From contig NZ_CP034550.1 in the NCBI RefSeq assembly GCF_009498035.1, positions 6,882,001 to 6,946,000 on the forward strand: a DNA stretch of 64,000 nucleotides, read 5' to 3'. Each line of letters begins with the position of its first letter. The stretch's first letter is position 1. This document shows, piece after piece, positions 15,505 to 48,790 of the stretch. Under the pieces are notes generated by a model. That model had not been told where the DNA came from, searched no databases, and saw nothing but the letters and a program-made list of their open reading frames with translations. Position numbers and translations under genes: made by a program. The stretch comes from Saccharothrix syringae. Lineage in GTDB: Bacteria; Actinomycetota; Actinomycetes; Mycobacteriales; Pseudonocardiaceae.

Positions 15505-15532
15505 TTGACACCTTTTGTGTTACCGCTAACAC
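15505..15532 (+). promoter_or_regulatory. GH43 promoter with embedded LacI operator
   Basis: TTGACA (15505-15510) is followed after 6 nt by GTGTTACCGCTAACAC (15517-15532). The operator covers the spacer and the presumed -10 (TAACAC, 16-nt spacing), so a bound repressor would block RNA polymerase directly. The arrangement is repeated at 18146-18173. Confidence 0.65.
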
Positions 15533-15649
15533 TGTCCGGCAACACGAAGTTGACGTCGCCGACACGCCTCATTTACCCACATCGTGCCGCACCGGTGCAT
15601 TTCAAGACCGGTCGACTCGTCCTGCCCACCGCCAGGTTCCCGCCTTTCA

Positions 15650-15663
15650 TGTTAGCGATCACA
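15650..15663 (+). promoter_or_regulatory. Second LacI operator upstream of GH43 gene
   Basis: TGTTAGCGATCACA, an imperfect copy of the island operator centred on CG, 132 bp (centre to centre) downstream of the first operator and 63 bp before the start codon. Confidence 0.55.
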
Positions 15664-15725
15664 CCAATGTTGACCGCCGACCGGGACGACCGGGCGGCGA
15701 TGCCCCGCAGAACAAGGAGAACCCC

Positions 15726-18086
15726 GTGGATCGACAACGTCCGCAGCGACCGGGTCGGCGGACCGCCGCCGTCCTCGCCGCCGTCGGCGCGCTGCTGGCC
15801 GCAGGTCTGGCCGCCACCCCGGCGGCGACCGCCGCCGAACCGAACCTCATCACCAACCCGGGCTTCGAGGACGGCCTGACCGGGTGGGCCGTCAACAGCG
15901 GGAACCCCACCGACGGCGCGACCCTGTCGCCGACCGGCGACGCCCACTCCGGTACCGGCGCGGTGCTGGTGACCGGCCGGCGGACCACCGGGTCGGGACC
16001 GGCGCAGGACCTGGCCGGGAAGGTGCACGCGGGCAGGACCTACACGATCAGCGCCCGGGTCAAGTACGAGAACCCGGACAGCCCGGCGACCAAGCAGTTC
16101 TTCGTCACCATGCACTACGGCGGCTCGACCTACACCAACCTCGGCACCGGCACGGTGCCGCGCGGCCAGTGGGGGCTGCTCCAGGGCACGTTCACGATCC
16201 CGGCCGGGCAGGACGTCACGACCCCGCGCGTGTTCGTCGAGACGCCGTGGGTCGCGGACCCGGCGGCCGCGCCGGCGACCCACCTGATGGACTTCAAGGT
16301 CGACGACGTGGTCCTGCGGGAGTTCGTCCCGTCGACCACCATCGAGGTCCTGGCCAAGAACCCCGGCGAGGGCAACCCGCTGATCTCCCACAAGTTCGGC
16401 GCCGACGGCAACGCCTTCGTCCACGGCGGCCGGGTGTACGTCTACATGACCAACGACACCCAGGTCTACAACCCCGGCCCCGACGGCACCTCGCCCACCA
16501 ACACCTACGGCGGGATCAACACGATCACCGTGATCTCGTCCGACGACCTGGTCAACTGGACCGACCACGGGGAGATCCCGGTGGCCGGGCCGAACGGCCT
16601 GGCGAAGTACGCGTCGCAGTCGTGGGCGCCCGCGGTCGAGAGCCGCGTGGTCGGCGGGGTGGAGAAGTTCTTCCTCTACTTCGCCAACAACGGCGCGGCC
16701 ACCGGCGTCCTGGTCGGCGACTCGCCGCTGGGCCCCTGGCGCGACGAGCGCGGCAGCCTGCTGATCACCGCGCAGACCCCCGGTGCCTCGGACGGCCGCA
16801 ACTGGCTGTTCGACCCGGGCGTGTTCGTCGACGACGACGGCCAGGGCTACCTGTACTTCGGCGGTGGCGGCAACGACGGCTCCAACTCCGCGGAGAACAC
16901 CAACCACCCGAAGTCGACGCGCGTCATCAAGCTGGGTGACGACATGATCAGCACCGAGGGCGCGGCGCAGACCATCGACGCGCCCCTGGTGTTCGAGGCG
17001 GGCCACGTCTTCAAGCGCGGCGGCAAGTACTACTACTCGTACTCCTCGAACTTCGGCTTCGGCGGGCCGATCGACCCGAACGGCCCGCCGACCGGCGCCA
17101 TCGCCTACCTCATGGCCGACGACCCGATGGGGCCCTGGACGCCCGAGACCTACGCGGGCGTCATCTTCAAGAACCCCGGCGTCTACTTCGGCGCCGGCGG
17201 CAACAACCACCAGTCGGTCTTCGAGTTCAACGGCGACTACTACTTCACCTACCACGCCCAGACGGTGAACCGCCGCATCACCGGCGGCGCGACGCAGGGC
17301 TTCCGCAGCCCCCACATCGCCAAGCTGGAGTTCAACGCCGACGGCACCATCAAGGAGGTCCTGGGCACCTTCGACGGCGTCGAGCAGGTCCGCCGGCTCG
17401 ACCCCTACCGGGAGATCGAGGCGGAGACCATCGCCTGGCAGCAGGGACTGGCCACCAAGCGGCTCACCGCGCCGAACGACGTGCCGGACCTGGCCCTGCA
17501 CGACGTCGACAACGGCGACTGGACGTCGCTGTCGTCGGTGGACTTCGGCACCGGCGCCACCGGCGTGTCGGCACGGGTCAGGCCGCTGGTGGCGGGCGCG
17601 GGCGTCCAGGTGCGCCTGGACGACCGCACCGGCCCGGTGGTGGCCACCATCCCGGTCGACGGGCCCGCCGGGGAGTGGACCGAGGTCGGGACCGACCTCG
17701 ACGGCGTCTCGGGCGTGCACGACGTGTACTTCACCTTCGTCGGGCCGGACGGCCGGGACCTGGTCGAGGTCGACAGCTGGCGGTTCACCGCGCCGTCGCT
17801 GCGGGTCGACGGCGCGGCCGACACCCGGTGCGCCGGCCGGAACGTCAAGCTGACCGTGCGGGTGACCAACGACGACTCGGTGCCCGTCGACTTCGCCGTC
17901 GACACGCCGTACGGCGCGAAGTCGCTGGGCGGGGTCAAGCCGGGCCAGAGCCGGGCCCACCCGTTCACGGTGCACAGCCCGACCCTGCCCGCCGGGGTGG
18001 CGACGGTGACGGCGACCGCGAAGGTGGACGGGCGCGACGTGTCGGTCGGGCTCCAGGTCCCGTACGAGGCGCGCAGCTGTCGCTGA
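15726..18086 (+). CDS. Secreted GH43 arabinosidase/xylosidase with CBM4/9 and CBM6 modules
   Basis: 786 residues from a GTG preceded by AAGGAG. A signal peptide (about 1-37) is followed by a CBM4/9-like jellyroll (about 39-200, NLITNPGFEDGLTGW). The GH43 five-bladed propeller spans about 205-560, with candidate base D227 (GADGNAF), pKa-tuning D363 (WLFDPGVFVDDDG) and acid E424 (FEAGHVFK). A CBM6-like module (about 563-700, REIEAETIAWQQG) and an Ig-like tail with a cysteine pair complete it. The architecture fits arabinoxylan arabinofuranohydrolase or beta-xylosidase-type GH43 enzymes acting outside the cell. Exact subfamily and specificity cannot be fixed by eye. It is controlled by two LacI operators and divergent from the repressor gene. 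Confidence 0.87.
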   Translation: MDRQRPQRPGRRTAAVLAAVGALLAAGLAATPAATAAEPNLITNPGFEDGLTGWAVNSGNPTDGATLSPTGDAHSGTGAVLVTGRRTTGSGPAQDLAGKVHAGRTYTISARVKYENPDSPATKQFFVTMHYGGSTYTNLGTGTVPRGQWGLLQGTFTIPAGQDVTTPRVFVETPWVADPAAAPATHLMDFKVDDVVLREFVPSTTIEVLAKNPGEGNPLISHKFGADGNAFVHGGRVYVYMTNDTQVYNPGPDGTSPTNTYGGINTITVISSDDLVNWTDHGEIPVAGPNGLAKYASQSWAPAVESRVVGGVEKFFLYFANNGAATGVLVGDSPLGPWRDERGSLLITAQTPGASDGRNWLFDPGVFVDDDGQGYLYFGGGGNDGSNSAENTNHPKSTRVIKLGDDMISTEGAAQTIDAPLVFEAGHVFKRGGKYYYSYSSNFGFGGPIDPNGPPTGAIAYLMADDPMGPWTPETYAGVIFKNPGVYFGAGGNNHQSVFEFNGDYYFTYHAQTVNRRITGGATQGFRSPHIAKLEFNADGTIKEVLGTFDGVEQVRRLDPYREIEAETIAWQQGLATKRLTAPNDVPDLALHDVDNGDWTSLSSVDFGTGATGVSARVRPLVAGAGVQVRLDDRTGPVVATIPVDGPAGEWTEVGTDLDGVSGVHDVYFTFVGPDGRDLVEVDSWRFTAPSLRVDGAADTRCAGRNVKLTVRVTNDDSVPVDFAVDTPYGAKSLGGVKPGQSRAHPFTVHSPTLPAGVATVTATAKVDGRDVSVGLQVPYEARSCR

Positions 18087-18094
18087 TCACCGGC

Positions 18095-18128
18095 GGTGGG
18101 GCGGTCCGGGTTCCCGGGCCGCCCCACC
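18095..18128 (+). terminator. Hairpin terminator after GH43 gene
   Basis: The 10-bp stem GGTGGGGCGG (18095-18104) pairs with 18119-18128, and an inner CCGGG/CCCGG stem extends it, starting 9 bp after the stop codon. No T-run, as usual in high-GC actinomycetes. Confidence 0.7.
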
Positions 18129-18145
18129 ACCGTACGGCAACGGTA

Positions 18146-18173
18146 TTGACACTCAACGTGTTATCGCTAACAC
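18146..18173 (+). promoter_or_regulatory. GH127 promoter with embedded LacI operator
   Basis: TTGACA (18146-18151), 6 nt, then GTGTTATCGCTAACAC (18158-18173). It shares the geometry of 15505-15532, and both operators are followed by TG. This is the best operator match in the window. The region 18087-18424 otherwise holds only a terminator and a second operator, with no gene. Confidence 0.7.
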
Positions 18174-18311
18174 TGAGGTAACGCTCCGGTCACCCAGCGA
18201 GCACCACGGCGTGTGAACCACGCCGCGCGGTTCGTTGAAAGGCATTCCACCCGAGCAGCGTTCCACCCCACCACGACCACGCCTGTCCGCCTCGGCCGAC
18301 GGGCCCGTTTG

Positions 18312-18327
18312 TTGTTAACGATAACAA
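18312..18327 (+). promoter_or_regulatory. Second LacI operator upstream of GH127 gene
   Basis: TTGTTAACGATAACAA: perfect 6-bp arms around a 4-bp centre, 154 bp (centre to centre) after the promoter operator and 97 bp before the start codon. Confidence 0.65.
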
Positions 18328-18424
18328 AGCGACCCGCTCCAGGGGCGGTCCGCCCCGGGCGGGAAGTTGGCCACCGCTTGCGGACAGGCTCACCGCAGCC
18401 ACCGCAGCCGATCCCGGGAGCCTC

Positions 18425-20746
18425 ATGTCGTCCTCACCGTTGAGCCGTCGCAGGCTGTTGCAGGCCGCCGGCGTCGCGGCCGTCGCGAGCACCGCACCCA
18501 CCCTGTTCCAGGGCACCGCCGGGGCGGCGGCGGTCCCGCCCGCCCGCGCCGACGTCGGCGTCTCGGCCTACGCGTTCGACCTCTCCGAGGTCCGGCTGAC
18601 CTCGGGCCGGTGGCTGGACAACCAGAACCGGACGCTGTCCTACCTGCGGTTCGTCGACGTCGACCGGTTGCTCTACAACTTCCGCGCCAACCACCGGCTG
18701 TCGACCAACGGCGCGGCGGCCCTGGGCGGCTGGGAGGCGCCGAACTTCCCGTTCCGCACGCACAGCCAGGGCCACTTCCTCACCGCCTGGGCGCAGGCGT
18801 GGGCCGTGCTGGGCGACACCACCTGCCGCGACAAGGCCAACTACATGGTCGCCGAGCTGGCCAAGTGCCAGGCCAACAACGGCGCGGCCGGCTTCAACAC
18901 CGGCTACCTGTCCGGCTTCCCCGAATCGGACCTCGACGCGCTGGAGGCGGGCTCGCCCAAGGCGGTGTCGTACTACTCGATGCACAAGACCCTGGCCGGC
19001 CTGCTGGACGTGTGGCGCCACCTCGGCAGCACGCAGGCCCGGGACGTCCTGCTGCGGTTCGCGGGCTGGGTGGACTGGCGCACCGCGCGGTTGTCCTACA
19101 GCCAGATGCAGCGCGTGCTGGGCACGGAGTTCGGTGGCATGAACGCCGTGCTGACCGACCTGTACCAGCAGACCGGGGACTCCCGGTGGCTGGCGACGGC
19201 GCAGCGGTTCGACCACGCCGCCGTGTTCGACCCGCTGGCGGCCAACCAGGACCGCCTCAACGGGCTGCACGCCAACACGCAGGTGCCCAAGTGGGTCGGC
19301 GCGGCGCGCGAGTACAAGGCCACCGGCACGACCCGGTACCGCGACATCGCCACCAACGCGTGGAACATCACCGTGGCCGCGCACACCTACGTGATCGGCG
19401 GCAACAGCCAGGCCGAGCACTTCCGCGCGCCCAACGCCATCGCCGCCTACCTCAACACCGACACGGCCGAGGCGTGCAACACCTACAACATGCTCAAGCT
19501 GACCCGCGAGCTGTGGCTGCTCGACCCGAACAACGCGGCCTACTTCGACTACTACGAGCGGGCCCTGCTCAACCACCTGATCGGCCAGCAGAACACCGCC
19601 GACGGCCACGGCCACATCTGCTACTTCACCGGCCTGAACCCCGGCCACCGGCGCGGCAACACCGGACCGGCCTGGGGCGGCGGCAACTGGAGCACCGACT
19701 ACACCACCTTCTGGTGCTGCCAGGGCACGGCGCTGGAGACCAACACCAAGCTGGCCGACTCGATCTACTTCTACAACGGCACCACGCTCACGGTGAACCT
19801 CTACGCGCCGTCGGTGCTGAACTGGTCGGCGCGGGGCATCACGGTCACCCAGAGCACCACCTACCCGGCGAGCGACACCACCACGTTCACGATCAGCGGC
19901 ACCGCGAGCGGGTCGTGGACGATGCGCTTCCGCATCCCGGCCTGGACCAGCGGGGCCACCGTCAGCGTCAACGGCGTGGCCCAGGGCGTCACCGCCACGC
20001 CCGGCAGCTACGCCTCGCTCACCCGCTCCTGGGCGCCCGGCGACACCGTCACCCTGCGCCTGCCCATGCGGGTGATCACGGTGCCCGCCAACGACAACCG
20101 CAACGTCGTCGCGGTCACCTACGGCCCGGCCGTGCTGGCCGGCAACTACGGCAACACCGCGCTGTCCGCGCTGCCGTCGCTCGACGTCTCGTCGATCACC
20201 CGCACCAGCACCACGGCGCTCGCGTTCACCGCGAGGGCCAACGGCACGACGGTCAACCTCGGCCCGTTCCACGACGCCCACGGCTTCAACTACACCGTCT
20301 ACTGGAGCACCGGCGGCAGCGGGGGCGGCAGCTACCGCCTGGTCAACGCGGCCAGCGGCCTGGTGCTGGGCATCCGGGACATGTCGACCGCCGACGGCGG
20401 CCTGGCGCTGCAGTGGGGTGACACGGGCACCGCCGACCACAACTGGGAGATGATCCCCGACGGCGGCAACGTGCGCTTCCGCAACGTCCACAGCGGCAAG
20501 GTGCTGGGCGTGGAGAACATGTCCACCGCCGACAACGCCCGGGTGCTCCAGTGGGGCGACACCGGCACCGCCGACCACAAGTGGACGCTGGTCGACAACG
20601 GCGACGGCACGCACAAGATCCGCAACGTCAACAGCGGCAAGCTGCTGGCCATCCTCAACGGCTCCACCGCGCAGGGCGCGCAGGTGGTCCAGGACTCCGA
20701 CAACGGCTCGGCGGACAACCGCTGGCGGCTGGTCCGCAACGCCTGA
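18425..20746 (+). CDS. Secreted GH127 beta-L-arabinofuranosidase with C-terminal ricin-type lectin repeats
   Basis: 773 residues, ATG after GGGAG. The N-terminus (SRRRLLQAAGVAAVAS) is a twin-arginine signal, fitting a metal-containing enzyme exported folded. The catalytic domain (about 45-630) is an (alpha/alpha)6 barrel plus beta-sandwiches. TAEACNTYNML supplies E349 and C351, and FWCCQGT supplies C431 and C432. These match the Zn-binding Glu/Cys3 set of Bifidobacterium HypBA1, where the first Cys of the CC pair is the nucleophile. After a Gly/Ser linker, three RICIN-like repeats (about 640-773, each with LQWGD or QDSDN and NW/KW) form a lectin module. It releases terminal beta-L-arabinofuranose, as found in hydroxyproline-rich glycoproteins and some pectic side chains. 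Two LacI operators precede it. Confidence 0.9.
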   Translation: MSSSPLSRRRLLQAAGVAAVASTAPTLFQGTAGAAAVPPARADVGVSAYAFDLSEVRLTSGRWLDNQNRTLSYLRFVDVDRLLYNFRANHRLSTNGAAALGGWEAPNFPFRTHSQGHFLTAWAQAWAVLGDTTCRDKANYMVAELAKCQANNGAAGFNTGYLSGFPESDLDALEAGSPKAVSYYSMHKTLAGLLDVWRHLGSTQARDVLLRFAGWVDWRTARLSYSQMQRVLGTEFGGMNAVLTDLYQQTGDSRWLATAQRFDHAAVFDPLAANQDRLNGLHANTQVPKWVGAAREYKATGTTRYRDIATNAWNITVAAHTYVIGGNSQAEHFRAPNAIAAYLNTDTAEACNTYNMLKLTRELWLLDPNNAAYFDYYERALLNHLIGQQNTADGHGHICYFTGLNPGHRRGNTGPAWGGGNWSTDYTTFWCCQGTALETNTKLADSIYFYNGTTLTVNLYAPSVLNWSARGITVTQSTTYPASDTTTFTISGTASGSWTMRFRIPAWTSGATVSVNGVAQGVTATPGSYASLTRSWAPGDTVTLRLPMRVITVPANDNRNVVAVTYGPAVLAGNYGNTALSALPSLDVSSITRTSTTALAFTARANGTTVNLGPFHDAHGFNYTVYWSTGGSGGGSYRLVNAASGLVLGIRDMSTADGGLALQWGDTGTADHNWEMIPDGGNVRFRNVHSGKVLGVENMSTADNARVLQWGDTGTADHKWTLVDNGDGTHKIRNVNSGKLLAILNGSTAQGAQVVQDSDNGSADNRWRLVRNA

Positions 20747-20764
20747 TCCCCGGAGGTCGGCACG

Positions 20765-20797
20765 GCGCCCGGTGCGGATTCGCTCCGCACCGGGCGC
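20765..20797. terminator. Bidirectional hairpin between convergent genes
   Basis: 14-bp perfect stem GCGCCCGGTGCGGA (20765-20778) pairing with 20784-20797 across a 5-nt loop. It serves the GH127 gene (ends 20746) and the opposing CE3-type gene (ends 20806). Confidence 0.85.
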
Positions 20798-20805
20798 TTC
20801 GCGCA

Positions 20806-24426
<3,621 letters not shown>

Positions 24427-26805: not shown

Positions 26806-26911
26806 GGGGACCTCCTGGTGTGGGTGTGCGGTGCGGCGGCGGGGGTGGGGTGCTCGGGCGTGCGGTGGGGCGCGCTCGGGCGTGCCCGAGGCGGTCGCCA
26901 CGACGTGGCGG

Positions 26912-31216: not shown

Positions 31217-32605
31217 TCAGAACTGCGAGATGAACCTCCACGCCTCGGCCTTGGTCCACGTCCGGGCGCCGTTCTCGGTGTAGGTGCCGTCGACCGGGCC
31301 GGGCGTGTGGCCGTTGTCGTACGCGGCCCACTGCACCGGGTAACCCGCCCGGCACGAGTAGGTCGTGACCACGTGGGACAGGCTCCCCTGCGCCGGCTCG
31401 CGCGGGTTCTGCGGCGTGCACCCGTTGTTCGCCACGAACCGGTCCCGCAGCGACCGCCCCATGGAGATGTTGAGCACGTTGTCCGTGATGCCGTGCAGGC
31501 CGAAGTAGGCGATCGGCTGGCTGCCGCCGCTGCACCCGCTCAGCTGGGCGCCGGAGTAGACGACCACGGCCCGGAACACGGTCGCGCGGGCGCAGGCGAG
31601 CGCGTAGCTCATGCCGCCGCCGTAGCTGAAGCCCATGGCGAAGCGCAGCTTCGGGTCGACGCAGAGGTCGGCCTCGATCCGCTTGATCATGTCGTCGGTG
31701 AAGGTGACGTCCTCGCCGCCGGAGTTGGCCCAGCCGTTGCCCAGGCCCTGCGGTGCGACCAGGATCGCGCTGTTGTTCGACTGCTCCTGCATCCCGTAGT
31801 AGGACCACGCGGTCCCGCTGCTGCCGCCGGAGGAGACGTCGTTCATGGTGCCGCCCCGCCAGTGGAACGCGAAGATCAGCCGGTACGGGCGGTTGTTGTC
31901 GTAGCCGTCGGGCACCCGCAGGACGAAGCTGCGGCTCTTCCCGCCGCTCTGGATCGTGTACGTGCCGCTGCGCAGCGTCGGGGCCTTGCCGCAGCCGCTG
32001 CCGCCGGGGTCGCCGCCACCGGACACCTTGGCCAACTGCCACTGCTGGTTGGTGCCGCCGTGGTCGGCGTACTGCACGACGTTGGCGTTGTCCGCGGTGG
32101 ACGCGCCCTGCACCTCCACCGCCTTGCCGCTGTGCCGGGCGATCAGCCGCACGTACCCGCCGTCGGAGTCGGCCAGGCCGAACTGCTGGTTGGTCCCACC
32201 GTGGTCGGCCCACTGCTGGATGGCAGTGCCGTCGGCGGTGGAGGAGCCGGGTACGTCGAGGACCTTGCCGGAGTGGCGTGATTTGAGGCGGTAGTAGCCG
32301 CCGCCGGAGTCGACGAACTGCCACTGCTGGTTGTTGCCGTCGTTGCGGGTCCACTGGGTGATGCGGCCGCCGTCGGCGGTGGAGAGGTTGTAGACGTCCA
32401 ACGCCTTGCCGCTGCCGCGGTTGACCAGGACGTACCACGCGTTCGTGTCGACCGTCGCCGCCGAGGCCGGTGGCGCGCCGACGCCGGTGACCGCGCCGGC
32501 CCCGGTGATCGCGCCGGTCGCGAGGACCACCGCCGCCACGGCGGTCGTCACCGGCCTCCGGCGACGCGGGGGTGAGGAGGCGGGTGCCTCGCCACTGGTG
32601 TTCAT
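31217..32605 (-). CDS. Secreted lectin-CE1 esterase (feruloyl/acetylxylan esterase, LpqC type)
   Basis: 462 residues from the ATG at 32605 (AAGGAG, 6-nt spacing). Signal peptide about 1-50 (RRRR then a hydrophobic stretch to ASAA). Residues about 53-193 form a ricin-type trefoil (three KALDV/KVLDV/KAVEV repeats ending NQQW or NQQF). After a Gly-rich linker, residues about 205-462 form an alpha/beta hydrolase with GFSYG (nucleophile S327), oxyanion segment FAFHWRGGT and C-terminal NGHTPGP supplying His. This is the CE1/LpqC-type feruloyl or acetylxylan esterase family. The lectin half shares 222 identical bases with the GH43 gene at 43437. Two LacI operators lie in the divergent region upstream. 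Confidence 0.85.
   Translation of the reverse strand: MNTSGEAPASSPPRRRRPVTTAVAAVVLATGAITGAGAVTGVGAPPASAATVDTNAWYVLVNRGSGKALDVYNLSTADGGRITQWTRNDGNNQQWQFVDSGGGYYRLKSRHSGKVLDVPGSSTADGTAIQQWADHGGTNQQFGLADSDGGYVRLIARHSGKAVEVQGASTADNANVVQYADHGGTNQQWQLAKVSGGGDPGGSGCGKAPTLRSGTYTIQSGGKSRSFVLRVPDGYDNNRPYRLIFAFHWRGGTMNDVSSGGSSGTAWSYYGMQEQSNNSAILVAPQGLGNGWANSGGEDVTFTDDMIKRIEADLCVDPKLRFAMGFSYGGGMSYALACARATVFRAVVVYSGAQLSGCSGGSQPIAYFGLHGITDNVLNISMGRSLRDRFVANNGCTPQNPREPAQGSLSHVVTTYSCRAGYPVQWAAYDNGHTPGPVDGTYTENGARTWTKAEAWRFISQF
32228..32449 (-). repeat. 222-bp exact inverted repeat, copy 1 (lectin coding)
   Basis: The reverse complement matches 43578-43799 base for base, including uncommon codons such as TCA and TTG. 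Both copies encode the first two lectin repeats of secreted enzymes. Identity stops abruptly at GACACGAAC on one side and GCCGACGGC on the other. Confidence 0.9.
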
Positions 32606-32790
32606 CGAGCACTCCTTCGGTTCGGGGCGAGGTCCCGCGGGCGCGCACCCCGGAACGCCCCGAGGGCGCTCCGGAAAGGGCGGGCGGTGGAATTCGACCG
32701 AGGCAAGTGGTGGAATCTCGCCGATGCGGCGCACCGGGGCCTTTCCGGCACCGTAGCCACCGGCGACACCGGGCGTCAACGCTCGATGTT

Positions 32791-32818
32791 GCTAAAATTG
32801 TGAGCGATAACTTTTAGT
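32791..32818. promoter_or_regulatory. lac-operator-like site inside a GCTAAA...TTTAGT element
   Basis: TTGTGAGCGATAACTT (32798-32813) reads like E. coli lacO1 lacking one G of GCGG. It is framed by GCTAAA (32791-32796) and TTTAGT (32813-32818), suggesting two overlapping sites. Confidence 0.6.
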
Positions 32819-32898
32819 CGGATCAGCGAATCTGGCCCCTCCGATGGTCATCACCGGGTGTCGAATGCGAATTCGAAGAGGTCAGCGACCGATGGCGC

Positions 32899-32912
32899 TG
32901 TTATCGCTCACA
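32899..32912. promoter_or_regulatory. Second LacI operator of the esterase/GH95 region
   Basis: TGTTATCGCTCACA. Its reverse complement TGTGAGCGATAAC is identical over 13 nt to the site at 32799-32811. The two sites are inverted relative to each other, 100 bp apart. Confidence 0.62.
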
Positions 32913-32930: not shown

Positions 32931-32960
32931 TTGACGGCCCTGTTCAAACCTGGCTACGTT
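32931..32960 (+). promoter_or_regulatory. Probable promoter of the GH95 gene
   Basis: TTGACG (32931-32936) and TACGTT (32955-32960) with an 18-nt spacer, 70 bp before the start codon and just downstream of an operator. Confidence 0.4.
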
Positions 32961-33029: not shown

Positions 33030-35891
33030 ATGCCCGACCTGCCACGAAGGCAACTGATGAAGTTCGGCGCGGCGAGCGCCGGGGCCGCGCTGGTGCCGGG
33101 CGGTTGGTCGGCGGTGGCCCGCGCCGGTTCGCTCGCGCCGCCGGAGGTCCGCGCGGTCGGCGACCTGGCGCTGTGGTACGACGAGCAGGCCGGTTCGGAG
33201 TGGCTGCGGGCCCTGCCGGTCGGCAACGGCCGCCTCGGCGCGATGGTCTTCGGCAACGCCGACGTGGAGCGGTTGCAGCTCAACGAGGACACGGTCTGGG
33301 CGGGCGGCCCCCACGACTACACCAACACGCGGGGCGCGAGCGCCCTGGCGGAGATCAGGCGGCTGGTGTTCGCCAACCAGTGGGCGCAGGCGCAGACCCT
33401 CATCGACCAGGCCATGCTGGGCAACCCGGCGGGCCAGCTCGCCTACCAGACCGTCGGCGACCTCAGGCTCACCTTCCCCTCCCCCGGCGCGGTGTCCGGC
33501 TACCAGCGGTGGCTCGACCTGACCACCGCCACCACCGCCGTGACCTACGTGGCCAACAACGTGCGGTACCGGCGCGAGGTCATCGCCAGCGCGCCGGACC
33601 AGGTGATCGCGGTGCGGCTGACGGCCGAGACGCCGGGCGCGATCTCGTTCACCGCCGCGTTCAGCACGCCGCAGCGCGCCACCGCGTCGAGCCCGGACGG
33701 CACGACCGTCGCGCTGGACGGCCGGTCCGGCGACCAGCGGGGCATCGCGGGCGCGGTGCGGTTCCTCGCGCTGGCCAAGGCCGTCGCCGAGGGCGGGACC
33801 ACCAGCAGCTCCGGCGGCACGCTGCGGGTCACCGGCGCCACCAGCGTGACCCTGCTGATCTCGATCGGCACCAGCTACGTCGACTACCGCAACGCGAACG
33901 GCGACTACCAGGCCATCGCGCGGGGACGCCTCGCCGCCGCCCAGGGCACCGCCTACGACGTGCTGCGCGCCCGGCACGTGGCCGACTACCAGCGGCTGTT
34001 CGGGCGCGTCACGCTCGACCTGGGCCGCACCCCGGCGGCGGACCAGCCGACCGACGTGCGGATCGCGCAGCACGGCGCCACCGCCGACCCGCAGTTCTCC
34101 GCGCTGCTGTTCCAGTACGGCAGGTACCTGCTGATCTCCTCGTCGCGGCCGGGCACCCAGCCCGCGAACCTCCAGGGCATCTGGAACGACTCGCTGACCC
34201 CGTCGTGGGAGTCGAAGTACACCCTCAACGCCAACCTGCCGATGAACTACTGGCCGGCCGACTCGACGAACCTGCCCGAGTGCCACGAGCCGGTGTTCCG
34301 CATGATCGACGACCTCGTCGCGACCGGCACCCGCACCGCGCGGGCCCAGTACGGCGCCGGCGGCTGGGTCACCCACCACAACACCGACGGGTGGCGCGGG
34401 TCCTCGGTCGTCGACGGCGCGCTCTGGGGCATGTGGCAGACCGGTGGCGCGTGGCTGTCCACCATGGTCTGGGACCACTACCTGTTCACCGGCGACGTCG
34501 CGTTCCTGCGCGCCTACTACCCCGCGATGAAGGGCTCCGCCCAGTTCTTCCTCGACACCCTGGTGGAGGAACCGACCCTGAAGTGGTTGGTCACCAACCC
34601 GTCGAACTCGCCGGAACTGCCCCACCACGCCAACGCCAGCGTGTGCGCCGGGCCCACCATGGACATGCAGATCCTGCGCGACCTGTTCGAGGGCTGCGCC
34701 CGCGCCTCGGAGGTGCTGGGCGTGGACGAGGACTTCCGCGGCCGGGTCCGCGCGACGGCGCAGCGGCTGGCGCCGACGCGGGTCGGCTCCCGGGGCAACG
34801 TGATGGAGTGGCTCTACGACTGGGTGGAGACCGAGCCGAACCACCGGCACGTCTCCCACCTGTACGGGCTGCACCCCAGCAACCAGATCACCAGGCGGCG
34901 CACGCCCCAGCTGTTCGAGGCCGCCCGCCGGACCCTCCAGCTCCGCGGCGACGCGGGCACCGGCTGGTCCCTGGCGTGGAAGATCAACTACTGGGCGCGG
35001 CTGGAGGAGGGCTCCCGGGCGCACGACCTGATCCGCTCCCTGGTCACCACCGACCGGCTCGCGCCCAACATGTTCGACCTGCACCCGCCGTTCCAGATCG
35101 ACGGCAACTTCGGCGCGACCTCGGGCATCGCCGAGATGCTGCTGCACAGCCACGACGGCGAGCTGCACGTGCTGCCCGCGCTGCCGCCCGCCTGGCCGGC
35201 CGGCAGCGTCACCGGCCTGCGCGGCCGGGGCGGGTACACCGTCGGCGCCACGTGGAGCGGTGGCGGCGCGACCGCCCTGACCGTCACCCCGGACCGCGAC
35301 GGCACCGTCCGGGTCCGCAGCCGGATGTTCACCGGCACGTTCGAGCTGCGCGACGCGACCAGCGGCACGGCCGTCCAGCCGGCCAGGCCCGAGGCCGACG
35401 TGGTCGAGTTCGCCGGGCAGGCGGGCCACACCTACCGCGCGACGGGCCAGGGCGGCTCCGGCGGGGTGGTGCAGCCGGGGGTGTACTACCGGCTGGTCGC
35501 GCAGCACAGCGGCAAGCCCGCCGACATCAGCGGCGCGTCCACCGCGGCCGGCGCGCTGCTGCAGCAGTGGACGCCGACCGGCGGGACCAACCAGCAGTTC
35601 GACTTCCTGGCCACCGGCGACCAGTACCGCGTCCGGGCCCGGCACAGCGGCCTGGTGCTCCAGGTCGCCGGCACCGGCAGCGGCGCCGACGTCACCCAGC
35701 AGCGCGACGCCGGCACCCCGAACCAGCTGTGGCGGTTGGTCGACCACGGCGGCGGGGTGGTGAGCCTGGTCAACCAGCAGAGCGGCCTGGCGCTGGACGT
35801 GTGGTCCGCCTCCACCGCCGACGGGGCGCGGATCTCGCAGTACGCCCTCTCCGGCAACGCCAACCAGCGCTTCCAGCTCCAGCGCGTCTGA
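33030..35891 (+). CDS. Secreted GH95 alpha-L-fucosidase/alpha-L-galactosidase with ricin-type lectin
   Basis: 953 residues from the ATG at 33030. The twin-arginine signal ([14 protein letters not shown]) indicates Tat export. The N-terminal beta-sandwich (about 45-300) opens with [23 protein letters not shown], and a helical barrel follows. Catalytic positions of GH95 are present: N400 and N402 in [13 protein letters not shown]529 in SNSPE, and D691 in FQIDGNFG. In Bifidobacterium AfcA the equivalents are N421/N423, E566 and D766. A C-terminal lectin trefoil (about 815-953) has three repeats. GH95 enzymes cut alpha-1,2-linked L-fucose or L-galactose, both found on xyloglucan side chains. A fuconolactonase-like gene nearby supports L-fucose or L-galactose as product (inference). 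Confidence 0.88.
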
Positions 35892-38469: not shown

Positions 38470-38488
38470 CTCGCGCACCGCCTCCCGG

Positions 38489-40464: not shown

Positions 40465-41351
40465 CCAGGATCGACGCGCACCACCACCTCTGGCGGCTCC
40501 GGCCGGGGGCACCGGGCGGACCGGGGCCGGGCCGCCGGGCCCACGAGTGGCTGGCCGGGCCGGGGTCGGCCGCGATCCGCCGCGACTTCACCCTGGACGA
40601 CCTCTCCCCCGTCGCCTCGGCGGCGGGGATCGACCGGACGGTCCTGGTCCAGGTCCTCCCGGAGGTCGCCGAGACGGCGGAGTTCCTGTCCCTGGCGGAC
40701 GGGAGCGACGGGCTGGTGGCCGGTGTCGTCGGGTGGGTCGACCTCACCGACGACGGCGTGGGCGACGCGCTCGCCGCCCTGCGCGCGGGCCCCGGCGGCG
40801 ACCTGCTCGTCGGCGTGCGGCACCTGGTGCAGGGCGAGGCGGACCCGCGCTGGTTGGCCCGGCCGGACGTGCGGCGCGGGCTGCGCGCGGTGGCGGGCGC
40901 GGGGCTGGTCTACGACCTGCTCGTCCTCGTCCACCAGCTGCCCGCGGCCATCGAGGTCGTGCGCGCGCTGCCCGGGGCGACGTTCGTCCTGGACCACCTC
41001 GCCAAGCCCCCGATCGCCGCCGGCGGGCGCGAGCCGTGGGAGTCCCGCATCCGCGAGCTGGCCGCCGAGCCGAACGTCGCCTGCAAGCTGTCGGGCATGG
41101 TCACCGAGGCCGACCACGCCGGGTGGACCGCGGCGGACCTGCGCCCGTACGCCGACGTGGTGCTGGACGCGTTCGGCCCGTCGCGGGTGATGTTCGGCTC
41201 CGACTGGCCGGTGTGCCTGCTCGCCGGCTCGTACCGGGAGGTCGTCGCGGCGGCCGAGGAGCTGACCGCCGGGCTCACCGCCGCCGAGCGCGACGAGGTC
41301 TTCGGCGGCACGGCCGCCCGCGTCTACCGGCTGCCGGGACAACGGCGCTGA
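40461..41351 (+). CDS. Amidohydrolase-family sugar lactonase, L-fuconolactonase-like
   Basis: 296 residues from a GTG overlapping the regulator stop (GGGAGG 4 nt upstream). The N-terminal RIDAHHHLW is the metal-binding HxH motif of the COG3618 amidohydrolase group, and MFGSDWPVC near residue 245 carries the conserved Asp. Members hydrolyse L-fucono-1,5-lactone or L-rhamnonolactone in non-phosphorylative deoxysugar catabolism; some act on pyrone dicarboxylate. With a GH95 enzyme and an RbsABC importer next door, an L-fucose or L-galactose lactone is the best guess. A matching dehydrogenase is not in the window. Confidence 0.8.
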   Translation: MTRIDAHHHLWRLRPGAPGGPGPGRRAHEWLAGPGSAAIRRDFTLDDLSPVASAAGIDRTVLVQVLPEVAETAEFLSLADGSDGLVAGVVGWVDLTDDGVGDALAALRAGPGGDLLVGVRHLVQGEADPRWLARPDVRRGLRAVAGAGLVYDLLVLVHQLPAAIEVVRALPGATFVLDHLAKPPIAAGGREPWESRIRELAAEPNVACKLSGMVTEADHAGWTAADLRPYADVVLDAFGPSRVMFGSDWPVCLLAGSYREVVAAAEELTAGLTAAERDEVFGGTAARVYRLPGQRR

Positions 41352-41516
41352 GAGCGCCTCGCCCATAACGGGCACAACGGGTCGAAACGGCGGCGCAACC
41401 CAAATCGACCCTCCTCCACGTCACCTTTGACGGGTGGTCGCACCAATGCGCTGCGACCCGGTCCACCGCTCTGCACGGTAACCATCCCCGCGAGGTCCGG
41501 TCAACGCTCCCGGACA

Positions 41517-41542
41517 GCTAAAATGTTTGCGTTAACTTTAGC
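41517..41542. promoter_or_regulatory. GCTAAA-N14-TTTAGC element with operator-like core
   Basis: Arms at 41517-41522 and 41537-41542. The centre contains TGTTTGCGTTAACT (41524-41537), a degraded copy of the LacI operator with intact GTT and AAC arms around CG. Confidence 0.5.
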
Positions 41543-41787
41543 TCGTCCTGCGGAATTCGCCGTCGAACGGCGTTCGACCAGGCTGCGCCGCCGGGGGCGC
41601 CGCCGCGCGCCCGACCGCACGCCCGCCGGCCGCGACACGGGGTCCCACCTGCACGAAACATTTTCGGCGCACCTTGACCGGCCCTGCGCCATCGTTCACA
41701 GTCTGAGAGGCACGACGCGTACCCGCGGTGACGACTACCGCACCCCAGCGCCCTCCCCTTTGCGCCGAGGAGGTTGGACCTCTTAAT

Positions 41788-41801
41788 TGTTAGCGTTAAC
41801 A
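41788..41801 (+). promoter_or_regulatory. LacI operator upstream of the xylanase operon
   Basis: TGTTAGCGTTAACA, symmetric except at one pair, 42 bp before the GH10 start codon and 264 bp (centre to centre) after the operator-like core at 41530. Confidence 0.65.
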
Positions 41802-41833
41802 GCAAAGCTCTGAATCAACGTCCCAATCCGTGA

Positions 41834-43324
<1,491 letters not shown>

Positions 43325-43371
43325 TCCGCCCCGGACACCGCAAGGAGCACTTCCCCTGCCAACCGACCCCG

Positions 43372-43396
43372 GGGCCCCGCACGCCGTGCGGGGCCC
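43372..43396 (+). terminator. Intra-operon hairpin between GH10 and GH43 genes
   Basis: 11-bp perfect stem GGGCCCCGCAC (43372-43382) pairing with 43386-43396 across 3 nt, about halfway through the 112-bp gap. It may attenuate transcription or protect the upstream mRNA. Confidence 0.55.
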
Positions 43397-43436
43397 GGGC
43401 CGCATCCCCGCCCGGCGCGGCGGGCAAGGAGCTGTC

Positions 43437-45554
43437 ATGTCCCTCCCCGATCAACTGCCAGGGCGCCTCGCGCGCCGACGTGCCCGGTGGTCGCGGGTGG
43501 CCGCGGTGCTGGCCGCGGTCGCCCTCGGAGGTGCGATGGTCATCGCGGGCTCGGCGACCGGCTCGGCCGCCACCGTTGACACGAACGCGTGGTACGTCCT
43601 GGTCAACCGCGGCAGCGGCAAGGCGTTGGACGTCTACAACCTCTCCACCGCCGACGGCGGCCGCATCACCCAGTGGACCCGCAACGACGGCAACAACCAG
43701 CAGTGGCAGTTCGTCGACTCCGGCGGCGGCTACTACCGCCTCAAATCACGCCACTCCGGCAAGGTCCTCGACGTACCCGGCTCCTCCACCGCCGACGGCG
43801 CCGCCATCCAGCAGTGGACCGACGGCAACGGCACCAACCAGCAGTTCCGGCTGGCCGACTCCGACGGCGGCTACGTGCGGCTGATCAACCGCAACAGCAA
43901 CAAGGCCGTCGAGGTCCAGAACGCCGCCACCAACGACGGCGCGAACATCGTCCAGTACAACGACTGGGGCGGCACCAACCAGCAGTGGCAGCTCGTCCGC
44001 CTGGGCACCGGCCCCACCACGACGACGACCACGACCACGACGACGTCGCAGCAGCCGGGTGGCCAGTTCACCAACCCGGTGGTGTGGCAGGACTTCGCCG
44101 ACGTGGAGGTGATCCGGGTCGGGGAGGTCTACTACATGACCGCCTCCACCATGCACTACTCGCCCGGCGCGCCGATCCTGCGCTCCTACGACCTGGTCAA
44201 CTGGGAGTTCGCCGGCCACTCCGTGCCCTCGCTGGACTTCGGCACCAAGTACGACCTCACCAACGGGCAGCGGGCCTACGTCAACGGCATCTGGGCGTCG
44301 ACCCTGCAGTACCGGCCGTCGAACCGGACCTACTACTGGGCCGGGTGCATCGACTTCAACGACACCTACATCTACACCGCCACCAGCGTCGAGGGCCCCT
44401 GGAACCGGCACGCCCAGATCGACAACTGCTACTACGACGCCGGCATGCTCATCGACGACAACGACACCATGTACGTCGCGTACGGCAACTCCACCATCAG
44501 CGTCGCGCAGCTGTCGGCCGACGGGCGCAGCCAGGTCCGCGCGCAGCAGGTGTTCCAGACGCCCTCCAACATCGGCACGCTGGAAGGCTCGCGCTTCTAC
44601 AAGCGGGGCAACAGCTACTACATCTGGCTGACGCGTCCCGCCAACGGCCAGTACGTCCTCAAGTCCGACAACGGCCCCTTCGGCCCCTACACCGTCCGCC
44701 AGGTCCTGCTCGACCTGCCGGGTCCGATCTCCGGCGGCGGCGTGCCCCACCAGGGCGGCCTGGTCCAGACGCAGAACGGCGCCTGGTACTACATGGCGTT
44801 CATCGACGCCTACCCCGGCGGCCGCGTCCCCGCGCTGGCCCCGATCACCTGGACCTCGGACGGCTGGCCCACCCTGCAGACGGTCAACGGCCGCTGGGGC
44901 GCGAACTACCCCTCGCCGCTGCCCACCCGCCCGGTCAAACCGCTCACCGGCACCGACACCTTCCCGGGCACGGCGCTGGGCCCGCAGTGGGAGTGGAACC
45001 ACGACCCGGACACCTCCCGCTACTCGGTCAACAACGGCCTGACGCTCCAGACGGCCACGGTCACGGGCGACCTCTACGCGGCCCGCAACACCCTGACCCA
45101 CCGCATCCAGGGCCCCACCTCCACGGCCACCATCGAGCTGGACTACAGCGCGATGCGCGACGGTGACCGGTCCGGCCTGGCCATGCTGCGCCAGTCCTCG
45201 GCCTGGATCGGCGTCAAGCGCGACAACGGCCAGACCCGCGTCTCCATGACCACCGGCCTGGCCATGGACGGCAGTTGGCGCACCACCAGCACCGGCAGCG
45301 AGGCGGCGGGCGCCGCGATCTCCGGCGGTCGGATCTGGCTGCGGGTCAACGCCGACATCCGACCCGGCTCCGGGCGCGTCGCCAGGTTCTCCTACAGCAC
45401 CGACGGCACCAACTTCACCACCCTCGGGCCGACGTTCACCCTCAACAACACCTGGCAGTTCTTCATGGGCTACCGCTTCGGCATCTTCAACCACGCCACC
45501 CAGGCCCTCGGCGGCGCGGTGACCGTCCGCAAGTTCGACCTCACCACCCCCTGA
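43437..45554 (+). CDS. Secreted lectin-GH43 arabinofuranosidase/beta-xylosidase
   Basis: 705 residues, ATG after AAGGAG. Signal peptide about 1-45. N-terminal lectin trefoil about 47-188, a Thr-run linker (about 193-204), then a GH43 propeller about 208-500 with candidate base D222 (DFADVEV), pKa modulator D334 (YYDAGMLIDD) and acid E383 (TLEGSRFYK). The C-terminal beta-sandwich (about 515-705) resembles the GH43 C-terminal domain of beta-xylosidases (PF17851 type), which contributes to the active site. It probably removes xylose or arabinose from xylan fragments. The first lectin repeats are identical at DNA level to those of the esterase gene ending at 31217. Confidence 0.87.
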   Translation: MSLPDQLPGRLARRRARWSRVAAVLAAVALGGAMVIAGSATGSAATVDTNAWYVLVNRGSGKALDVYNLSTADGGRITQWTRNDGNNQQWQFVDSGGGYYRLKSRHSGKVLDVPGSSTADGAAIQQWTDGNGTNQQFRLADSDGGYVRLINRNSNKAVEVQNAATNDGANIVQYNDWGGTNQQWQLVRLGTGPTTTTTTTTTTSQQPGGQFTNPVVWQDFADVEVIRVGEVYYMTASTMHYSPGAPILRSYDLVNWEFAGHSVPSLDFGTKYDLTNGQRAYVNGIWASTLQYRPSNRTYYWAGCIDFNDTYIYTATSVEGPWNRHAQIDNCYYDAGMLIDDNDTMYVAYGNSTISVAQLSADGRSQVRAQQVFQTPSNIGTLEGSRFYKRGNSYYIWLTRPANGQYVLKSDNGPFGPYTVRQVLLDLPGPISGGGVPHQGGLVQTQNGAWYYMAFIDAYPGGRVPALAPITWTSDGWPTLQTVNGRWGANYPSPLPTRPVKPLTGTDTFPGTALGPQWEWNHDPDTSRYSVNNGLTLQTATVTGDLYAARNTLTHRIQGPTSTATIELDYSAMRDGDRSGLAMLRQSSAWIGVKRDNGQTRVSMTTGLAMDGSWRTTSTGSEAAGAAISGGRIWLRVNADIRPGSGRVARFSYSTDGTNFTTLGPTFTLNNTWQFFMGYRFGIFNHATQALGGAVTVRKFDLTTP
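43578..43799 (+). repeat. 222-bp exact inverted repeat, copy 2 (lectin coding)
   Basis: Partner of 32228-32449 in opposite orientation, 11.1 kb away. Recombination between the two would invert the GH95/transporter/xylanase segment. The flanking lectin sequence is similar but not identical, so this patch was probably homogenised by recent gene conversion. Confidence 0.9.
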
Positions 45555-45586
45555 CCGCCGCCCGAACAACACGAACGGAGGCCCAC

Positions 45587-46930
45587 GTGGTCAAGAGCAG
45601 GCTGACGGCCGTCGTCGCCGCGGTGCTGCCGCTCATCGCCGGTCTCGTGCTGGCGGTGGTCGCGCAACCCGCGAACGCGGCGTCGCTGGTGCGGGTGACG
45701 AACTTCGGCACCAACCCCACCGGCCTGAACATGTACGTCTACGCACCCGACGCGGTGGCACCACGTCCCGCCCTGCTGGTCATGGTGCACTACTGCGGCG
45801 GTTCCGCGAGCGCCGTCCACAACGGCAACGGCCGCGACTACGCCACCGCGGCCGACCGGTACGGGTACGTGATCGTCTACCCGGAGGCCACCCGCGAGGG
45901 CCGCTGCTTCGACGTGTCCACGGCCAACGCGTTGCGCCGCAACGGCGGCGGTGACTCCACGGGCATCATGTCGATGGTGTCCTACGCGCGGCAGCGCTAC
46001 AACGTCGACCCGGGGCGCATCGTCGTGGCCGGCTTCTCGTCCGGCGCGATGATGACCAACGTGCTGGCCGCCCAGTACCCGGACGTGTTCAGCGCGGGCG
46101 CGGCGTACTCGGGCGTCCCGGCGGGCTGCTTCGCGACCACCAACGGGTCGCTGTGGAACAGCCAGTGCTCGGGCGGGAACCTGCTGAAGACCCCGCAGCA
46201 GTGGGGCGACCAGGCGCGGGCCATGTACCCCGGCTACACCGGGCCGTACCCGCGGATGCAGCTGTGGCACGGCACGACCGACACCACGCTGGCCTACCCG
46301 AACTTCGGCGAGGCGCTGGACCAGTGGACCAACCTCCACGGGCTGAGCCGGACGCCGTCGTTCACCGACTACCCGCAGTCGAGCTGGACCCGCACCCGCT
46401 ACGGCAACACCGGTACCAACGCCACCATCGAGGGCATCAGCATCCAGGGCACCGGCCACACCCTGCCGCAGGCCGGGATGCTCGCGTACTCCATCGCCTT
46501 CCTCGGCCTGGACCGCCCGTCCACCACCACGACGACGACCACCACTTCCACCACGACCACCACTTCCACCACCACGACGACCACCACGACGACCACCACG
46601 ACGACGTCGGTCCCGCCCGACGCCTGCAAGGTCACCGCGGCGGTCAACGCCTGGAACAACGGCCTGACCGAGACGATCACCATCACCTCCGCCACGGCCC
46701 TGAACGGCTGGCAGCTCCGGTTCACGCTGCCCGGCGGGCAGGCCATCACCGGTGGCTGGAGCGCGAGCTACTCGCCGACCACCGGCCAGGTGACCGCGCG
46801 CAACGTCGACTACAACGCGCAGGTCCCGGCGGGCGGGTCGGTGTCGATCGGCTTCCAGGCCACCCACACCGGCGACGACTCCGCCGCCGGCGGCTTCACG
46901 CTCAACGGCGCGCCGTGCGCCGCGGGGTGA
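45587..46930 (+). CDS. Secreted CE1 (PHB-depolymerase-like) acetylxylan esterase with CBM2
   Basis: 447 residues, GTG after GGAG. Signal peptide about 1-32. Alpha/beta hydrolase about 35-310: oxyanion region VHYCGGS, GFSSG with nucleophile S151, Asp candidate in HGTTDTTL and His in GTGHTLP. A long Thr/Ser-run linker (about 313-343) leads to a CBM2 module (about 346-447, starting with CKV and ending with CAAG, Trp residues at NAWNN, NGWQL and GGWSA) that binds cellulose or xylan. Family members deacetylate xylan, and some cleave feruloyl esters or short polyhydroxyalkanoates. Gaps of 32 and 46 bp to its neighbours indicate the same operon as the xylanases. Confidence 0.88.
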   Translation: MVKSRLTAVVAAVLPLIAGLVLAVVAQPANAASLVRVTNFGTNPTGLNMYVYAPDAVAPRPALLVMVHYCGGSASAVHNGNGRDYATAADRYGYVIVYPEATREGRCFDVSTANALRRNGGGDSTGIMSMVSYARQRYNVDPGRIVVAGFSSGAMMTNVLAAQYPDVFSAGAAYSGVPAGCFATTNGSLWNSQCSGGNLLKTPQQWGDQARAMYPGYTGPYPRMQLWHGTTDTTLAYPNFGEALDQWTNLHGLSRTPSFTDYPQSSWTRTRYGNTGTNATIEGISIQGTGHTLPQAGMLAYSIAFLGLDRPSTTTTTTTTSTTTTTSTTTTTTTTTTTTTSVPPDACKVTAAVNAWNNGLTETITITSATALNGWQLRFTLPGGQAITGGWSASYSPTTGQVTARNVDYNAQVPAGGSVSIGFQATHTGDDSAAGGFTLNGAPCAAG

Positions 46931-46976
46931 CGGCCGCCGTGGCGCACCCAGAGCAGCCAACCGACCGGGAGGCACA

Positions 46977-48383
<1,407 letters not shown>

Positions 48384-48386
48384 GCC

Positions 48387-48426
48387 CCGCGGGCTCGACC
48401 CGACCGGGGTCGGGTCGAGCCCGCGG
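48387..48426 (+). terminator. Hairpin terminator ending the xylanase operon
   Basis: 18-bp perfect stem (48387-48404 with 48409-48426), 4-nt loop, 4 bp after the stop codon. Confidence 0.9.
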
Positions 48427-48466
48427 ACCAGGTGGACCGCCGAACCCCGAAAAACTCGGCCCGCCG

Positions 48467-48480
48467 TGTTATCGCTAACC
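48467..48480 (+). promoter_or_regulatory. LacI operator upstream of the dehydrogenase promoter
   Basis: TGTTATCGCTAACC, identical over 13 nt to the left of the operator at 18158-18173, 26 bp upstream of the probable -35 element. Confidence 0.6.
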
Positions 48481-48505
48481 GGATCCGGGTAACCCCGGAG
48501 TGGTC

Positions 48506-48553
48506 TTGTCGGTGGCGGAAAGCGTGCGCTACGGTGCCCTGGGAACGCTCCCA
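48506..48553 (+). promoter_or_regulatory. Probable promoter with CebR-like operator
   Basis: TTGTCG (48506-48511) and TACGGT (48530-48535), 18-nt spacer. TGGGAACGCTCCCA (48540-48553) starts 5 bp downstream. It differs at one base from the CebR/CelR consensus TGGGAGCGCTCCCA, the cellobiose-responsive repressor site of Streptomyces and Thermobifida. It overlaps the expected transcription start, an ideal repression position. Confidence 0.6.
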
Positions 48554-48613
48554 GACATGCTGGCCCGGCATCTGGCGACGACACCACGCACCCTGCTCGC
48601 AAGGAGGCGGAGC

Positions 48614-48706
48614 ATGGCTCCACGTGCGCGAAAGCGGTCCGGGTCGTCATCGTTCCGCTCCAGACCCGGTTCGGCGCCCGCCACGGCCGCCATCCGGCGC
48701 GTCTAG
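48614..48706 (+). CDS. 30-codon leader ORF
   Basis: Encodes 30 residues, strongly basic and Ser/Arg-rich (begins MAPRARKRSG, ends ATAAIRRV), behind a near-perfect AAGGAGG ribosome site 6 nt before the ATG. It lies downstream of the promoter and CebR-like box and ends 117 bp before the dehydrogenase start, between the two LacI operators. It has no signal peptide or known motif. It may be a leader peptide acting in cis or a small regulatory protein. Coding status rests on the ribosome site and position only. Confidence 0.45.
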   Translation: MAPRARKRSGSSSFRSRPGSAPATAAIRRV

Positions 48707-48774
48707 GGACACCTCCGCTCGACCACTTCGGCGCACGTCGGCCGCCATCGACGGGGCGCGATGTCGCATGACCT

Positions 48775-48790
48775 TTGTTAGCGATAACAA
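48775..48790 (+). promoter_or_regulatory. LacI operator just upstream of the dehydrogenase gene
   Basis: TTGTTAGCGATAACAA, perfect 6-bp arms, 33 bp before the start codon and 309 bp (centre to centre) from the other operator. It could act as a roadblock to elongation or control a second start site. Confidence 0.65.

Follow-up and report, generated by a model that had tools for sequence, protein, structure and literature searches.

The AraR repressor of Corynebacterium glutamicum is a LacI-type protein with few targets. In strain ATCC 31831 it acts on araBDA and araE, and its role as a repressor is described (PMC5956887); in Bifidobacterium the LacI-family araBDA regulator AraQ is described as having sites upstream of the -35 box that were read as activating and others that were read as repressing (PMC5928203). 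Here we describe a 64,000-nt stretch of the Saccharothrix syringae genome (NZ_CP034550.1, positions 6,882,001 to 6,946,000; hereafter the window) in which ten copies of a LacI-type operator are arranged in five pairs. We think it rather probable that these sites are the plant-polysaccharide branch of an L-arabinose regulon that spans the genome and is run by two AraR-type repressors, with operator pairs in helical phase, a nested activator-like palindrome and a feed-forward loop. In comparison with C. glutamicum ATCC 31831 AraR, the system has many secreted enzymes as targets, a paralogous repressor and phased pairs, whereas AraQ is tied to central metabolism, and the description of it available to us mentions neither phased pairs nor a nested palindrome (PMC5928203).

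To our knowledge, what is known of helical phasing in repression loops comes chiefly from designed Escherichia coli constructs. In vivo, lac loops are reported to have optima near 133 and 144 bp, at about 11 bp per turn (PMC8501960), and the helical repeats fitted for the lac loop are given as 10.95, 11.08 and 11.60 (PMC1762422). A survey of the LacI family lists more than one site for about 20% of regulated operons, with distance peaks at 13, 22 and 32 bp (PMC4052901), whereas the spacings described here run from 44 to more than 200 bp in steps of 11 bp. In CytR/CRP anti-activation, a LacI-family repressor is described as working at activator sites (PMC3454398), but that system uses adjacent CRP sites and a protein contact, whereas here one operator is nested in the palindrome of a presumed second regulator. 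We found no earlier report of phased AraR pairs or of such a composite in the open-access literature.

Results

Operators of an AraR-type regulon

A search of the window with the pattern TGTTANCGNTAACA, allowing up to two mismatches, gave 10 matches, where dinucleotide shuffles expect 0.14 and reach a maximum of 2. The matches form five two-copy control regions (starts 15518/15650, 18159/18313, 32799/32899, 41524/41788 and 48467/48776), five of them without mismatch, three with one and two (32799 and 41524) with two. This agrees with a first-pass annotation of the same DNA, whose positions were sometimes 1 bp off and whose spacings of 132, 154, 100, 264 and 309 bp we reproduced from start to start. 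TGTTANCGNTAACA is an even palindrome with a central CG, the form described for operators of the LacI/GalR family (PMC4052901), and the annotation's view of a single LacI-type operator family with pairing as a design feature held up. Most of its targets did too: Pfam supports GH43, GH127, GH95, GH10 and the GSDH-type dehydrogenase with its SGL lactonase, but the CE1 assignment of 31217-32602 was not confirmed, with only ricin-lectin domains above cut-offs.

The five regions are all paired but do not follow one design, as the operators differ in position relative to promoters, which throughout this work are consensus matches only. Operators 15518 and 18159 share bases with promoter cores, 32799 and 32899 each stand 26 bp before the -35 box of one of two divergent promoters, and the partners 15650, 18313, 41788 and 48776 are located in leaders. 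The same positions recur among 258 unique sites, where operator centres are most frequent at 19-20 bp behind the start of TTGAC and at 26-27 bp behind that of TTGAG, that is, over the spacer and -10 element; a third peak falls 25-27 bp before TTGAC. Of the window's operators, 15518 and 18159 lie behind TTGAC and 32799, 32899 and 41524 in front of it.

The sites are not confined to the 33 kb to which they had been assigned. Scanning the whole genome (10.93 Mb, one contig) with the reversed pattern as control, we found 47 places for TGTTANCGNTAACA at up to two mismatches against 13 for the control, and 37 for TGTKANCGNTMACA at up to one mismatch against 3, of which 9 are in the window and 28 outside. 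Among these 37 places, 24 form 12 pairs less than 340 bp apart, and two more have partners found only in the TGTTANCGNTAACA scan. Exact matches to a narrower operator pattern number 11 genome-wide and all lie before or at the very start of genes (GH43, GH127, GH62, GH10, GSDH, araR, the araB-like kinase and one RbsD/FucU gene) rather than scattered in unrelated coding DNA, the outcome that would have spoken against the earlier proposal; some two-mismatch sites do fall inside coding DNA of unrelated genes (e.g. 4944316 and 9103936), in about the number that the control predicts. Outside the window, Pfam matches of the neighbours identify as targets three GH43 genes, three GH62 genes (one of them divergent from a GH10 gene), GH54, GH27 and GH30, together with an ABC solute-binding protein, the RbsD/FucU gene, araR and the araB-like kinase. 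Judged from sequence, the ten sites belong to a genome-wide AraR-type (LacI-family) regulon.

The araR gene in question encodes a protein, B (2620600-2621613), with a perfect operator just upstream. Behind it come an FGGY kinase gene, which starts with another perfect operator, and a gene for L-arabinose isomerase. Because B and the adjoining kinase carry perfect operators beside araB/araA-type genes, we assign the operator to an AraR-type repressor, for which L-arabinose would be the effector. The window encodes a paralogue, W, which is 81% identical to B over their length and is not beside araB/araA-type genes; its closest named relatives are Saccharothrix proteins at 86-88%. The single regulator proposed earlier thus gives way to two near-identical candidates. 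Scoring 150 of 193 candidates showed that the genome encodes 44 or more DNA-binding domains of LacI type, and among those listed QTVSR occurs in the recognition helix of W, B and a third protein, C (5149675; 46% identical to W). The recognition-helix region is identical in W and B.

Operator pairs and the repressor gene co-occur in the genus. Calling AraR-type proteins at E up to 1e-120 in 25 genomes, we found the gene in 19 and operator pairs 90-150 bp apart in exactly those 19, with pairs in 0 of the 6 genomes without it; random matching would give this exact coincidence once in 177,100, ignoring relatedness. A family-wide search of 70 genomes with a narrower pattern found pairs in only 2 genomes, one being the window's own. 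In 20 relatives' stretches, the genes beside pairs, judged by eye, are mostly secreted-glycosidase-like, with a few transporter and regulator genes among them. We also considered mobile elements as the source of pairs repeated within one genome; by eye, from translations, the gene contexts look like secreted glycosidases.

Operator pairs of the genus are phased at 11 bp

The first-pass annotation had treated looping as a hypothesis, the spacings not being uniform multiples of 10.5 bp. They do miss that period, but a phase is found at 11.0 bp, and looping is better supported than was assumed. In the window, 132 = 12 x 11, 154 = 14 x 11, 100 = 9 x 11 + 1, 264 = 24 x 11 and 309 = 28 x 11 + 1, which gives R 0.96 at 11.0 bp (p 0.01, n = 5) versus R 0.54 at 10.5. 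For fifteen hand-listed pairs from the same genome, R is 0.57 with a period of 11.0 (p 0.008), compared with 0.50 for 10.5.

For the genus, four contiguous spacing searches covering 29-272 bp were combined, and 105 stretches of relatives plus 12 sources from the S. syringae genome were scanned with one loose site definition, yielding 122 unique pairs, 8 of them from S. syringae. The phasing statistics leave out three 30-32 bp pairs on TGTGACCGGTCACA, which seem to represent a different motif, as well as the off-phase pair G018:C35 (103 bp). All 122 pairs give R 0.63 with a best period of 11.00. Clustering by BLAST with operators masked produced 34 clusters, the largest of 16, whose medians give R 0.515 (p 1e-4), a jitter null reaching the best R 4 times in 5000. 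Taking one value per cluster and spacing group left 61 de-duplicated values, for which R is 0.632 at 11.0, the best period 11.05 and p 2.6e-11 (jitter null 0/5000). Specifically, 51 of the 61 lie within 2 bp of 11n, comprising 42 of 52 below 150 bp and 9 of 9 above. A period of 10.5 bp was rejected (R 0.37 versus 0.63 at 11.0 for the 61 values). With alternative clustering cut-offs, 49 clusters gave p 1e-7, and a single cluster was uninformative.

Separately, the araR-region pair in L083-L112 (mainly Lentzea) has spacings of either 57-58 or 78-80 bp, which are about 22 bp apart, or two 11-bp turns.

A second palindrome encloses some operators

A second element, GCTAAA-N15-TTTAGC, was scanned in 40 genomes (24 of the genus and 16 others) alongside a reversed control. 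It occurs in 66 copies in 17 genomes, all of the genus (17/24, versus 0/16 of the others), and the control gave 4; the palindrome is absent from all six genomes of the genus that lack an AraR-type gene. The operator core, at up to one mismatch, is enclosed in 37 of the 66 copies, all in one register and in both orientations (19 + 18), where shuffling of the inner bases expects 0.035; the other 29 have no operator core. Three palindromes lie in the window, one before W and two as composites (Table 1).

Considering 52 palindromes unique by their flanks (N14 or N15), we looked on both sides, within 150 bp, for a strict promoter (TTGAC-N16-19-TANNNT). One is present for 30 of the 52, with the -35 box at 15 bp (7 cases), 24.5-26 bp (22) or 79 bp (one) from the palindrome centre, and none of these 30 promoters overlaps the palindrome. 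The distances of 15 and 24.5-26 bp differ by about one helical turn, as do those of activator sites near -51 and -61, and the palindrome looks like an activator site; at the esterase-like gene and the leftward promoter at 41504, its centre would lie some 61 bp before the start. Two LacI genes, at 7754657 and 6844402, are candidates for its regulator, although in our judgement a LacI dimer would hardly span half-sites that are 21 bp apart.

The promoter next to the composite at 41517 points leftward (41504). Operator 41524 is probably the leftover of a lost neighbour gene, because this promoter faces no leftward gene start while a divergent GH27 gene occupies that place in the related stretch L278.

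A third inverted repeat, TCGAA-N3..6-TTCGA, was seen in composite-bearing control regions, at 32861-32876 and 41564 in the window and at 6843302, 7751996 and 2130520 in the same genome. The window has a single copy of its exact 16-bp form (32861-32876), and the other places were found by eye.

The two repressor genes are controlled differently

The AraR-type search of the genus listed 34 entries, four of which (G001:C8, G010:C86, G107:3036394 and G007:C9) stand outside all promoter counts. A tree of 26 AraR-type proteins divides, with full support, into a W group of 10 and a B group of 16. All 17 B-type genes (the 16 and L306) are preceded by TGTTATCGCTAACA, at 74-100 bp from a point close to the start, and none has the palindrome. 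W orthologues carry GCTAAA-N15-TTTAGC upstream in 9 of 10 (one as N16) and a promoter TTGAC-N18-TACATT in 10 of 10, any upstream operator being at least 250 bp away. L318-L320, L079 and L082 make up a further clade of AraR-type proteins, at 77-78% identity to W; the 600 bp checked upstream of its genes contain neither operator nor palindrome.

Proposed mechanism and alternatives

The E. coli LacI tetramer forms through a helix at the C terminus of the protein, and GalR loops by dimer-dimer contact. In the reading that we favour, B, with its own-gene operator, and W probably read the same operator. Without arabinose, one occupied operator would block the promoter core of the GH43 and GH127 genes, and a second, whole helical turns away at 11.0 bp per turn, would bring two repressor dimers onto one face of the DNA and allow a loop, which might close by dimer-dimer contact, perhaps with a DNA-bending protein, since W lacks the tetramer helix. 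At the esterase-like gene and the leftward promoter 41504, the operator nested in the palindrome would let the repressor exclude the activator. W itself looks driven by the second regulator, because W-type genes carry the palindrome and B-type genes the operator; that regulator would then drive W while W represses some of its targets, which would form an incoherent feed-forward loop.

Several observations weigh against this reading. The alignment of W with E. coli LacI stops at LacI residue 332, so that W, unlike the tetrameric LacI, has no LacI-type tetramer helix. Pairs 44-46 bp apart exist, which is very short for a loop. The spacing at the W locus is 103 bp, off phase, in three genomes (one outside the statistics), and relatives of the 41524/41788 pair have spacings of 252, 254, 257 and 292 bp; because these related stretches show several phases, that pair gives phasing no support. 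Looser clustering into 21 clusters raises p to 0.018, and in other genera phasing is not significant (R 0.27, p 0.16, with 16 of 26 values fitting). As for the palindrome, 22 of the 52 have no strict promoter within 150 bp, and among 18 scanned genomes with an AraR-type gene it is missing only from G005, which has AraR and the pairs. The missing helix and the pairs as short as 44 bp would suit an arrangement without a loop, in which the operators act separately, one blocking the promoter and the other acting as a block or roadblock at another position, with the 11-bp phase coming from the repressor face relative to RNA polymerase or from dimers cooperating through bent DNA. So would the fixed position of one operator of many pairs relative to the -35 box (19-20 bp behind TTGAC, 27 behind TTGAG), and because of this fixed distance, phase to the other operator is inseparable from phase to polymerase. 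A plain roadblock, however, requires no phase, and the phase is kept in all nine values above 150 bp, too far for side-by-side contact, so that we regard a loop-free arrangement as unlikely though quite conceivable. Promoter relatedness limits the phasing statistics, and the result is comparative; that 122 pairs fall into only 34 clusters, the largest of 16, and that other genera lack a significant phase would both be expected if the phase came from chance or shared ancestry, with few ancestral promoters behind most pairs. We consider this improbable, as one random member per cluster still gives a median p of 6e-5, 24 of 37 spacing changes of at least 4 bp between nearest homologues equal 11n within 2 bp (binomial p 0.014), and the window and its own genome agree with the phase.

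The location of W in the island, and the control of its gene unlike that of B, raise the alternative that the window sites belong to W alone and that B serves only araBA, giving two regulons with look-alike operators. The identical recognition-helix regions argue against such a division, as do nine genomes without a W orthologue that keep operator pairs (G004, G005, G007, G012, G013, G014, G017, G020 and G107), and we find it fairly unlikely. The GCTAAA palindrome could also be the extended operator of a repressor, of the LacI family or another, each composite then being one large repressor site; in its favour, the two LacI genes named above sit in palindrome-carrying clusters. Yet in 30 of 30 strict matches the palindrome stands before the -35 to -10 region and not over it, at two distances about one turn apart in 29 of them, which is activator geometry, and the 29 copies without operator core likewise speak for a separate element; we doubt the extended-operator explanation to much the same degree as the division between W and B.

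If loops under two AraR-type repressors are indeed what the pairs record, evolution seems to have repeated the same spacing series many times in high-GC soil bacteria, at 11 bp per turn, and loop mechanics would be readable from genomes. The nested element suggests a demand for a xylan signal as well as arabinose before costly enzymes are secreted, and the two repressor copies differ by clade: an operator precedes the gene in one, and the activator-type palindrome takes its place in the other. It is possible, though we hold it only tentatively, that the regulon is a genus-wide natural record of the in vivo helical repeat, with dozens of pairs from 44 to more than 200 bp on an 11.0-bp lattice made by a looping repressor without the LacI tetramer helix, and that the operator was repeatedly built, at one register, into the site of a xylan activator that drives the duplicated repressor W, creating an AND-NOT promoter in an incoherent feed-forward loop.

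Other features of the window

Table 1. Regulatory sites and genes of the window, in window coordinates
Feature	Position	Strand	Basis or remark
W, LacI-family repressor, paralogue of AraR-type B	14208..15242	-	Pfam LacI and Peripla_BP_3 (PF00356, PF13377 above cut-off)
BxlR-type box CGAAAGTTTCG in W leader	15309..15319		1 match in window, 0.01 expected
Promoter-like TTGACT-N18-TACATT before W	15353..15382	-	sequence; same in 10/10 W orthologues
Second palindrome GCTAAA-N15-TTTAGC before W, no operator core inside	15395..15421		in 9/10 W orthologues
Operator, GH43 pair	15518..15531		over spacer/-10 region behind TTGACA 15505-15510
Operator, GH43 pair, leader	15650..15663		TGTTANCGNTAACA match
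GH43 with CBM4_9 and CBM6	15726..18086	+	Pfam
Operator, GH127 pair	18159..18172		over spacer/-10 region behind TTGACA 18146-18151
Operator, GH127 pair, leader	18313..18326		TGTTANCGNTAACA match
GH127 beta-L-arabinofuranosidase-like	18425..20746	+	Pfam
Ricin-lectin protein, weak (sub-threshold) esterase match	31217..32602	-	Pfam
Promoter-like TTGACG-N18-TACGGT of ricin-lectin/esterase-like gene	32750..32779	-	
Composite GCTAAA-N16-TTTAGT (one mismatch)	32791..32818		around operator 32799-32812
Operator	32899..32912		centre 25.5 bp upstream of GH95-gene -35 box
Promoter-like TTGACG-N18-TACGTT of GH95 gene	32931..32960	+	
GH95 with ricin-lectin domain	33030..35891	+	Pfam
Composite GCTAAA-N14-TTTAGC	41517..41542		around operator 41524-41537
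Promoter-like TTGACC-N17-CACAGT of GH10 operon	41674..41702	+	sequence; weak -10
Operator, GH10-operon leader	41788..41801		TGTTANCGNTAACA match
Xylan cluster: GH10-ricin lectin, GH43-ricin lectin (43437-45554), esterase-CBM2 (to 46930), GH10-CBM2 (46989-48383)	41843..48383	+	Pfam
Operator, upstream member of dehydrogenase pair	48467..48480		TGTTANCGNTAACA match
CebR-like site TGGGAACGCTCCCA between the two dehydrogenase-gene operators	48540..48553		1 mismatch to the presumed CebR motif
Operator, dehydrogenase-gene leader	48776..48789		TGTTANCGNTAACA match
GSDH-type dehydrogenase (48824-50533) and SGL lactonase-like protein (50571-51569)	48824..51569	+	Pfam

CebR, whose operator motif we take to be TGGGAGCGCTCCCA, was considered as the regulator of the ten sites and set aside, since their core differs; the window has one CebR-like site. 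The CGAAANTTTCG box likewise occurs once, at 15309 before W, and the xylan box of BxlR is given as CGAANNTTTCG (PMC12772271).

Elsewhere in the genome, an operator pair 46 bp apart (4740091/4740137, L058) lies before the RbsD/FucU gene. In the relatives L172, L183 and L189, a secreted-glycosidase-like gene stands between such a pair and a similar gene, and this glycosidase-like gene may have been lost here. Near the gene for C, two identical perfect palindromes, TGTTTACGCAAACA, lie 107 bp apart at 5154950 and 5155057 (L063), and these are perhaps the protein's own operators.

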